Shown: positions 716-33,783 of the stretch, piece by piece
Layout: each line of letters opens with the position of its first letter
Position numbering within the stretch: position 1 is the first letter of the stretch
Assembly: GCA_016929655.1 (NCBI GenBank)
Contig: JAFGIJ010000173.1
Span: 1-33,783, forward strand
DNA from: Clostridia bacterium
Lineage (GTDB): Bacteria > Bacillota > Clostridia > DUPQ01
DNA: 33,783 nt
Direction: 5' to 3'
Translations under genes and position numbers: made by a program
The notes under the pieces: generated by a model
Told to the model about the DNA's origin: nothing
What the model saw: the letters and a program-made list of their open reading frames with translations, nothing else
Database searches by the model: none

Positions 716-767
716 GCCTAATAATTCAGACAGACGTAAATATTTACGTCTGTCTGAATTATTAGGC
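716..767. repeat. Perfect spacer-less palindrome, copy 1 (50-bp core shared with copy 2)
   Basis: Bases 717-766 are an exact 50-bp palindrome. The left half begins CCTAATAATTCAGACAGACG and the right half is its exact reverse complement. Here it extends one pair further, to 52 bp. The same 50 bp occurs without a mismatch at 9496-9545. It lies between the clpX terminator and the permease promoter. It lacks an adjacent T-run of its own, so it does not look like a normal terminator. Confidence 0.95.
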
Positions 768-4118: not shown

Positions 4119-4166
4119 CAAGAAACACGCCTTTGCATAATTGATATATTACCCATGCTCCGGGCT

Positions 4167-4832
4167 TCAAATCATATGTGGTCTGAACCCGATCCGGTCA
4201 GCCGATACATTTATATAGTGGATGCCATCGGACTCATATTCATTGGGTTTGTCCCACTTGCCATGAATGTGGCCGAACAAGCATCTGCTGATACCATTTT
4301 TTTTCATCATTTCTATGAAATCAGGATTGTTGTCAGGCGGGAAGTGAAATACTGCAATCTTTTCACCCAGGCACTTTTCACCTGCATCCAGCGAAAGGCC
4401 GAATCTTATGATTTCCCTGTTCCTGATTGTCTGGTCCTTCTCATTTTCAAAATCAAATCCCTTGGTTCCCACATAACATCTTTCTTCTGCAGACACACAA
4501 TTGTTGTACAGGAATCCTATGCTTTTAACCCCAATGGAATCAAGGAACTTTTCCATTTTTGTGACAGTTTCCCACCAATAATCGTGGTTTCCTTTAAGCA
4601 TGACCTTTTTTCCGGGCAGTCTTTCGAGAAATAGAAAATCCTCGACGGCCTGTTCAAGATATGTAGCCCATGAAAAATCACCTGGTAAAATAACGGTATC
4701 TTTTTCCCTTACCACATCATTCCAGTTTCTTTCGATCTGCTCAGAATGATTTGCCCATCCATCACCGAATATATCCATGGGTTTTTCTACCTGGTGTGAC
4801 AGATGAAGGTCGCCTATTGCTAAAACACTCAT
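4167..4832 (-). CDS. Calcineurin-like metallophosphoesterase
   Basis: This 221-residue cytoplasmic protein has the full dimetal phosphoesterase signature: GDLHLS (7-12), GDFSW (51-55), GNHDYWW (81-87), an HFP stretch near 163 and GHIHG (187-191). Members of this fold hydrolyse phosphomono- or diesters, and the true substrate of this subgroup is not apparent from sequence. Its ATG overlaps the uvrC stop in an ATGA arrangement, so it is translationally coupled to uvrC as the last gene of the amidohydrolase-tsaE-tsaB-rimI-uvrC operon. A role in nucleic-acid or nucleotide processing is a guess from that context. No clear terminator follows it. Confidence 0.9.
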   Translation of the reverse strand: MSVLAIGDLHLSHQVEKPMDIFGDGWANHSEQIERNWNDVVREKDTVILPGDFSWATYLEQAVEDFLFLERLPGKKVMLKGNHDYWWETVTKMEKFLDSIGVKSIGFLYNNCVSAEERCYVGTKGFDFENEKDQTIRNREIIRFGLSLDAGEKCLGEKIAVFHFPPDNNPDFIEMMKKNGISRCLFGHIHGKWDKPNEYESDGIHYINVSADRIGFRPHMI

Positions 4833-9495: not shown

Positions 9496-9545
9496 CCTAA
9501 TAATTCAGACAGACGTAAATATTTACGTCTGTCTGAATTATTAGG
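9496..9545. repeat. Perfect spacer-less 50-bp palindrome, copy 2
   Basis: This is identical over all 50 bases to 717-766, with CCTAATAATTCAG at one end and the exact reverse complement at the other. The flanking bases differ between copies, so the repeated unit is defined as exactly 50 bp. It lies between the rpsI terminator and the amidohydrolase promoter, the same relative position as copy 1. Confidence 0.95.
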
Positions 9546-9547
9546 AC

Positions 9548-9574
9548 AAAAAAAGACGCCTTTCGGCGTCTTTT
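9548..9574 (-). terminator. Rho-independent terminator after rpsI
   Basis: On the minus strand the stem AAAAGACGCC pairs with GGCGTCTTTT around a GAAA loop and is followed by a T-run. It starts a few bases past the rpsI stop. Confidence 0.93.
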
Positions 9575-9580
9575 GTGGTT

Positions 9581-9976
9581 TTATCTCTTTGAGAACTGAG
9601 GAGCTTTTCTTGCCTTTTTAAGACCGTATTTCTTTCTTTCTTTCATTCTTGGATCTCTGGTAAGGAATCCGGCTTTCTTGAGGTCGCCTCTGAGTCCTGG
9701 TTCTGATTCAAGGAGCGCCCTTGAAATACCATGTCTGATTGCACCGGCCTGGCCTGTGAATCCACCGCCCTTTACATTGACCAGAACATCAAAACGTCCG
9801 TCTGTCTTGGTCAATACAAGAGGCTGCCTTACAATAACCTTAAGGGTTTCAAGTCCAAAATATTCGTCAATTGACCTTTTGTTTATAGTTATCTGTCCTG
9901 TTCCCGGTACAAGCCTGACCCTTGCTATTGATTTCTTTCTTCTTCCGGTTCCGTAATACTGTACGCTGTTAGCCAT
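9581..9976 (-). CDS. rpsI: 30S ribosomal protein S9
   Basis: This 131-residue protein has the S9 signature: the N-terminal [16 protein letters not shown], the central [19 protein letters not shown] and the basic tail [12 protein letters not shown] that reaches the P-site tRNA. It lies 18 bases behind rplM, the near-universal L13-S9 pair, and has its own GGAGG ribosome site. A strong terminator ends the transcript. Confidence 0.99.
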
Positions 9977-25029: not shown

Positions 25030-25076
25030 GTAACATTGCATCCTTAATAATACGTTGATTTTTCGCAATTATTAAA

Positions 25077-25210
25077 AACCAATCATCCTTAACCAATCAT
25101 CCTTAACCAATCATCCTTAACCAATCATCCCAAGGATGATTGGTTGCTTATGGAATGATTGGTTGCTTATGGGATGATTGGTTGCTTTTGGGATGATTGG
25201 TTGCTTTTGG
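25077..25210. repeat. Inverted array of eight AACCAATCATCC units
   Basis: Four direct copies of AACCAATCATCC with a 14-bp period (25077-25130) meet, across a CAA spacer, four reverse-complement copies with an 18-19-bp period (GGGATGATTGGTTGCTTTT type, 25134-25210). Seven units keep the 12-mer exactly; the second right-hand unit has one G to A change. On the minus strand the transcript of the preceding ydbC gene could fold into a branched hairpin ending GGTTTTTAA. It lies between ydbC and the tldD promoter. Confidence 0.93.
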
Positions 25211-25249
25211 ATTATTCATTATTTTCGCTGAAATCCGAAGTTGGATATG

Positions 25250-33740: not shown

Positions 33741-33783
33741 AACCAATCATCCCAAGGATCTTTGGTTGTTTTCATCCAATCAT
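33741..33783. repeat. Second locus of the AACCAATCATCC repeat family, cut by the window edge
   Basis: The first 19 bases (AACCAATCATCCCAAGGAT) are identical to 25119-25137 at the centre of the large array. A degenerate inverted arm (TTTGGTTG) and another CATCCAATCAT unit follow up to the last base, so the array probably continues outside the window. Confidence 0.85.

Follow-up and report, generated by a model that had tools for sequence, protein, structure and literature searches.

Two palindromes downstream of clpX and rpsI

The window, which is the whole 33,783-nucleotide stretch of DNA analyzed here, carries two copies of one palindrome, each facing the 3' end of a minus-strand gene. Copy 1 (positions 716–767, with a 50-bp unit at 717–766 and pairing that extends 1 bp on each side) lies downstream of clpX (809–2071), and copy 2 (9496–9545, 50 bp) lies downstream of rpsI, the gene for ribosomal protein S9 (9581–9976); neither copy is assigned a strand. 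Both read CCTAATAATTCAGACAGACGTAAATATTTACGTCTGTCTGAATTATTAGG: they are 100% identical, and each is its own complete reverse complement without a spacer, which confirms in full the exact loopless 50-bp palindrome reported at 717–766 and 9496–9545 in an earlier note. The chance of a palindrome of this length is negligible (about 34,000 × 4^-25). Folded as single-stranded DNA, the 50-mer forms a 23-bp stem (−23.2 kcal/mol, z −15) that is perfect except for four unpaired central bases. The claim that the unit is sharply bounded at 50 bp was nearly right: copy 1 pairs over 52 bp, and the direct repeat reaches 58 nt at 97% only because a separate terminator has its A/T-run directly against each copy.

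These terminators are intrinsic and lie on the minus strand. That of clpX (769–794) has a 9-bp stem, a 4-nt loop, and a T-run towards the palindrome, and that of rpsI (9547–9574) has a 10-bp stem, a 4-nt loop, and a T-run adjoining the palindrome. Along the minus strand, the clpX stop is followed by the hairpin and T-run, then by 2 bp, and then by the palindrome; the rpsI arrangement is alike. Each window copy sits just past the T-run of a separate terminator, in agreement with the earlier view that the palindrome is not a simple terminator.

Conservation of the palindrome beside clpX and rpsI, which had been proposed as a possible line of support, was not found at the orthologous 3' ends where sequence was available. 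The comparison used two Clostridia MAGs of the same genus, G001 (matching contig JAUVJE010000052) and G002 (JAFGQE010000025). G002 has both genes with different downstream DNA, and the rpsI 3' end of G001 has no palindrome; the G001 contig stops right after clpX.

A dispersed family of palindromes and 19-bp arrays

The host genome, G000, is a MAG of an uncultured Clostridia (2.23 Mb, 229 contigs, 89% complete). Copies were gathered with progressively looser patterns, and every match was then read individually. This gave 35 sites, which we call family 1: 17 are palindromes and the other 18 are arrays with a 19-bp unit. The statement that the palindrome is present twice is correct for the window, where both copies are real, but it undercounts the genome. 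At one mismatch, AAATATTTACNTCTG had 113 matches in G000 compared with 4 for the reversed control.

The two forms have the 15-bp motif CAGACGTAAATATTT in common. As an inverted pair it makes the loopless palindrome, and in tandem 19-bp repeats it makes the array. Both forms are capped by (C)CTAATAATT...AATTATTAG(G), variant or shortened in some copies. The consensus of the 17 palindromes is CCTAATAATTACGACAGACGTAAATATTTACGTCTGTCGTAATTATTAGG, and the window copies represent a sub-type with CAGA in place of ACGA. Nine sites, whose flanks are unrelated, carry the ACGA sub-type, and at six of these the palindrome is perfect over 50 bp. The array unit, CAGACGTAAATATTTNNNN (19 bp), is repeated up to 13 times, with a switch of orientation in some arrays, and 6 of the 18 arrays run into contig ends. 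No hairpin was apparent on inspection of the 19-bp unit alone. Within an unbiased 227 kb of G000, all loopless palindromes with arms of ≥11 bp belonged to family 1 (six matches), whereas two genomes of the same genus had none in samples of 68 kb and 129 kb.

Differences among the palindromes are symmetric between the arms. Across nine distinct palindromes, 98.9% of cells are paired, and 16 cells are changed on both sides compared with 4.5 in shuffled and 0–5 in slid controls; moreover, the inner 21 pairs are mismatch-free in 15 of the 17 palindromes. Such perfect arms suggest either that the hairpin form matters for copying or that hairpin-templated correction maintains the symmetry.

All 35 sites are intergenic, one small overlapping ORF call being probably spurious, and sampled G000 DNA is about 89.5% coding and about 10.5% non-coding. 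Most copies are located at gene 3' ends, and some lie between divergent genes. A terminator stands beside 23 of the 35 sites, 21 of them found by the detector and two (contigs C22 and C105), with large or imperfect hairpin loops, added by eye. Of the 25 assembled sites that have a gene 3' end, the detector found a terminator at 19, compared with 25 of 58 comparable element-free gaps (Fisher p = 0.008). The terminator-like hairpin beside the C105 array (L168:1080–1150) contains ACGTCTG/CAGACGT and looks as if a repeat unit became part of the terminator. None of the 11 full-length sites has an abutting direct repeat of 3 to 8 bp, and this absence of a target-site duplication is as expected for Y1 single-strand transposition.

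Family 1 is species-specific. A 28-mer search with up to three mismatches found no copy in 98 relatives, and counts of the family-1 motif in relatives were at the level of the reversed control; sampling comprised one MAG per species, with repeats read from sampled stretches. Exact 20-mer scans gave no match in viral contigs or in 84,980 species genomes, a collection that may omit the window's own genome. An Rfam search likewise returned no match, and a literature search found nothing. The suggestion of recent dispersal is supported by the many intergenic copies, the identical sub-types at unrelated places, and the relatives without the family; the proposed search of the genome and its relatives for such copies yielded 35 sites in the host, every one intergenic.

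RAYT genes and their own repeats

A Pfam Y1_Tnp search combined with a protein search revealed three genes in G000 that resemble those of RAYTs (REP-associated HuH tyrosine transposases), on contigs C89, C149, and C78. The C89 gene (G000:C89:1827–2600) encodes an HuH Y1 transposase of 257 aa with an HTH-like tail. A family-1 palindrome at C89:1695–1744 ends 82 bp upstream of this gene, and a family-1 array at about 4166–4301 lies 1.6 kb downstream, beyond two further genes; a clear nearby copy is therefore present on one side only. With 35 sites and roughly 900 gaps, an estimated number, the chance of one RAYT adjoining family 1 is about p 0.04–0.08, so that the adjacency alone is moderately improbable by chance. 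The link carries weight because RAYTs with their own repeats are found across the genus.

The C89 protein has the motifs NHSH and YVSLNA, the latter with P changed to A relative to the class-2 Y---NP, and His59, His61, Tyr118, and Asn122 are invariant in eight homologues. Loss of the catalytic tyrosine was considered and rejected, since the Y motif YVSLNA was found further along. Long RAYTs match the NCBIfam model NF047646 (REP-associated tyrosine transposase) with E values from 1e-10 to 8e-21, below the cut-off, and the C89 protein does so with E 5e-11, below the curated cut-off. The sole PDB match of the RAYT profile was E. coli TnpA-REP (4ER8, E 0.001), and HTH_29/23/28 gave a weak match, below the cut-off, in G001_C22.

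The C149 gene is flanked on both sides by a second repeat family, AACCAATCATCC-TTG-GGATGATTGGTT, which is unrelated to family 1; the AACCAATCATCC 12-mer has 70 exact copies in G000 and 0 in the reversed control. An array of this family in the window, at 25064–25230, consists of four 14-nt AACCAATCATCC units followed by inverted GGATGATTGGTT in 19-nt units. The window contig ends inside another AACCAATCATCC-family copy (33741–33783), whose reverse complement is present at the start of G000:C76, so that C76 and the window contig may be adjacent or overlapping. The third gene, on C78 (L224:2415–2924), is truncated where its contig ends, and a search for an overlapping contig gave none. It is of a second, shorter type of RAYT in which the long tail is missing, also seen at G002:C46 and G002:C176; the shorter-type RAYT in stretch L254 showed no clear flanking repeats. 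The missing ~10% of G000 could hold another cognate RAYT. A third array family, with the 34-bp unit CTCGGGTATTTACTCGAAAATCAGGTAAACACCC, occupies the contig starts of C20 (L115:1–157) and C160 (L128:12–98), and no RAYT linked to it was identified. A 34-bp array at G001:C55 differs in sequence and also contains TCGAAAATCA. An origin of the 34-bp arrays from IS21-like ends was considered and rejected, the neighboring ORFs being ordinary genes.

Each of the six long RAYTs in G001 and G002 has hairpin or tandem repeats of its own at its flanks. Recurrence was searched in 246 kb of G001 and 341 kb of G002, and the repeats of four of the six genes recur on other contigs, those of G002:C137 by a shorter core. 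The core patterns of G002:C40 and C134 were not found on other contigs of these samples, and none of the six core patterns occurs in another genome. Three RAYT-linked hairpin families (L249, L250, and L225) have the tip CC-TTG-GG in common despite unrelated stems, and this tip is possibly a common recognition element. The center of the family-1 palindrome does not have it.

Origin of family 1 and comparison with known systems

Overall, we interpret the palindrome as one form of a REP-like (REPIN/BIME-like) non-autonomous family that is most likely mobilized by a RAYT, and we assign this reading a probability of roughly 0.6. The role of the RAYT is one that we infer from the adjacency at C89 and the pattern in the genus. 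A domesticated RAYT at G000:C89:1827–2600 would copy family 1 in trans, with the element passing through a folded single-stranded DNA form, and the copies would persist where DNA is non-coding, chiefly in the stretch that follows an intrinsic terminator. A more tentative proposal, which we regard as possible but rather doubtful, is that the long HTH-tailed RAYTs (subclass 2.1 or group 1) do have cognate repeats, but unusual ones. The tail would read the 15-bp double-stranded motif and the HuH domain would do the copying, so that loopless palindromes and 19-bp satellite arrays could arise from one module, and rapid turnover would leave each species and each RAYT with a repeat of its own.

Among the alternatives, the one that comes closest is unlikely, namely that the palindromes arise locally as replication folds back (template switch) where the tandem arrays have their self-complementary AAATATTT box, with hairpin-templated repair keeping the symmetry and a transposase needed at most for the arrays to arise. 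Indeed, the C50 array has at its left end the sequence that makes up the left half of the palindrome (CCTAATAATTACGACAGACGTAAATATTT), and hairpin-templated correction predicts the symmetric changes of the sub-types. However, the ACGA sub-type occupies nine sites with unrelated flanks, and a local fold-back moves no sequence between places; it may have acted together with dispersal by a RAYT. Mobilization by an ordinary DDE transposase, as for a MITE-type non-autonomous element, would account for short, palindromic, multi-copy elements with inverted caps in common, but we consider it improbable and rejected it for want of duplications and a partner: the 11 sites examined show no target-site duplication, the motif occurs in short clusters, no longer element bounded by family-1 ends was seen, and the gene beside a family-1 copy is a RAYT rather than a DDE transposase.

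Similarly improbable is a binding site selected by the host for a chromosomal protein, such as an operator or a gyrase or nucleoid site. The 15-bp core is conserved in both forms, inverted and direct multimers resemble protein sites, and host roles have been reported for E. coli REP/BIMEs; family-1 copies may have a secondary host use. As the main reading it was rejected on species restriction and 3'-end placement: same-genus genomes do not have the family, it is not conserved beside clpX or rpsI, and its copies have no consistent position relative to promoters. The classical operator raised in the earlier note is likewise unsupported, since most copies, whether palindromes or arrays of up to 13 units, are at gene 3' ends. 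A function in transcription termination or as 3'-end RNA hairpins is still less probable. The hairpin is long and stable (−23.2 kcal/mol as DNA) and mostly found at gene 3' ends, but it lies beyond an existing terminator that has its own T-run, most copies have no T-run themselves, and some are between divergent genes; an intrinsic terminator was rejected because the hairpin is AT-rich and placed past the T-run of a separate one. Least credible of all is an assembly artefact, in spite of a fragmented MAG in which six arrays end at contig ends, because the 35 sites have distinct flanks and systematic sub-types and the same architecture is present in two independently assembled relatives. The refutation that the note had itself envisaged, with only two copies and one of them an artefact, is excluded by the 35 sites.

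Taken as a RAYT-linked family, family 1 belongs to an uncultured Clostridia genus whose genomes contain several long RAYTs, every one accompanied by a GTAG-less family of its own. These sets provide natural enzyme–substrate pairs for a RAYT group reported to be without REPs, and family 1 bears on how one motif yields both palindromes and tandem satellites. Moreover, RAYT-linked repeats may explain some contig breaks in such MAGs.

Most descriptions of RAYT-driven repeats concern Proteobacteria and Cyanobacteria, and there the repeats are GTAG-footed hairpins. Family 1 resembles the REP/REPIN/BIME "REPtrons" (PMC8266576, PMC6006769) in being made of short palindromic intergenic repeats that occur singly, in inverted pairs, or in tandem, in being species-specific, in the association of each RAYT with its own family, and in having a copy that adjoins the RAYT gene. 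A palindrome of 20 to 50 nt in many intergenic copies (35 sites) and an HuH Y1 RAYT gene with a close cognate repeat (C89, 82 bp) are both present, and the RAYT proteins match the REP-transposase model, below its cut-off, and, as a profile, 4ER8. In contrast to REPtrons, family 1 is a perfect 50-bp palindrome without a bulge or loop, its 19-bp tandem units have no obvious hairpin of their own, the RAYTs, at about 257 aa, are long and end in an HTH-like tail, and the host belongs to the Clostridia. The GT[AG]G foot is absent at all 11 full-length palindromes. Because this foot and the stem-loop are missing, family 1 is REP-like in its working but is not classed as REP, and a canonical REP was rejected for the lack of GTAG. 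CGTC-tagged REPs (PMC3733652) are also palindromic repeats that contain CGTC and form dimers and clusters. However, their tag is unpaired beside an 8- to 9-bp stem with a 4- to 5-nt loop, they end in a CCA tail, and they have no linked transposase (PMC3733652), whereas the CGTC of family 1 lies within the 25-bp paired arm; this assignment was rejected because the tag is paired.

In TIRtrons, TIRYT HuH Y1 genes have on their flanks inverted repeats that are not related to GTAG REPs; some of these TIRs are self-complementary and belong to families dispersed as singles, dimers, or clusters (Di Nocera 2013, PMC3733652). The same paper describes TIR families beside RAYTs resembling subclass 2.1 and does not mention Clostridia or Firmicutes. 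The repeats on both flanks of the C149 gene and of the six G001 and G002 genes fit this description well. The C89 gene, unlike these, has a clear near copy on one side only, and family 1 is not classed as TIR because TIRs on both sides of this gene are not clearly present. In addition, the GGGGWSAS motif of most, though not all, TIRs is absent from the family-1 palindromes as read. The long RAYTs described here appear to resemble TnpA-Y1 subclass 2.1 (Bertels group 1; PMC6006769) in the NHxH, F-E/F-Q, and Y---N motifs, the length of about 240 to 260 aa, and the HTH-like C terminus, with sequence motifs as the only basis for the subclass and the HTH. In a 2018 survey, subclass 2.1 genes were found to have no REP-like repeats beside them (PMC6006769), whereas in this genus repeats flank the long RAYT genes and are dispersed.
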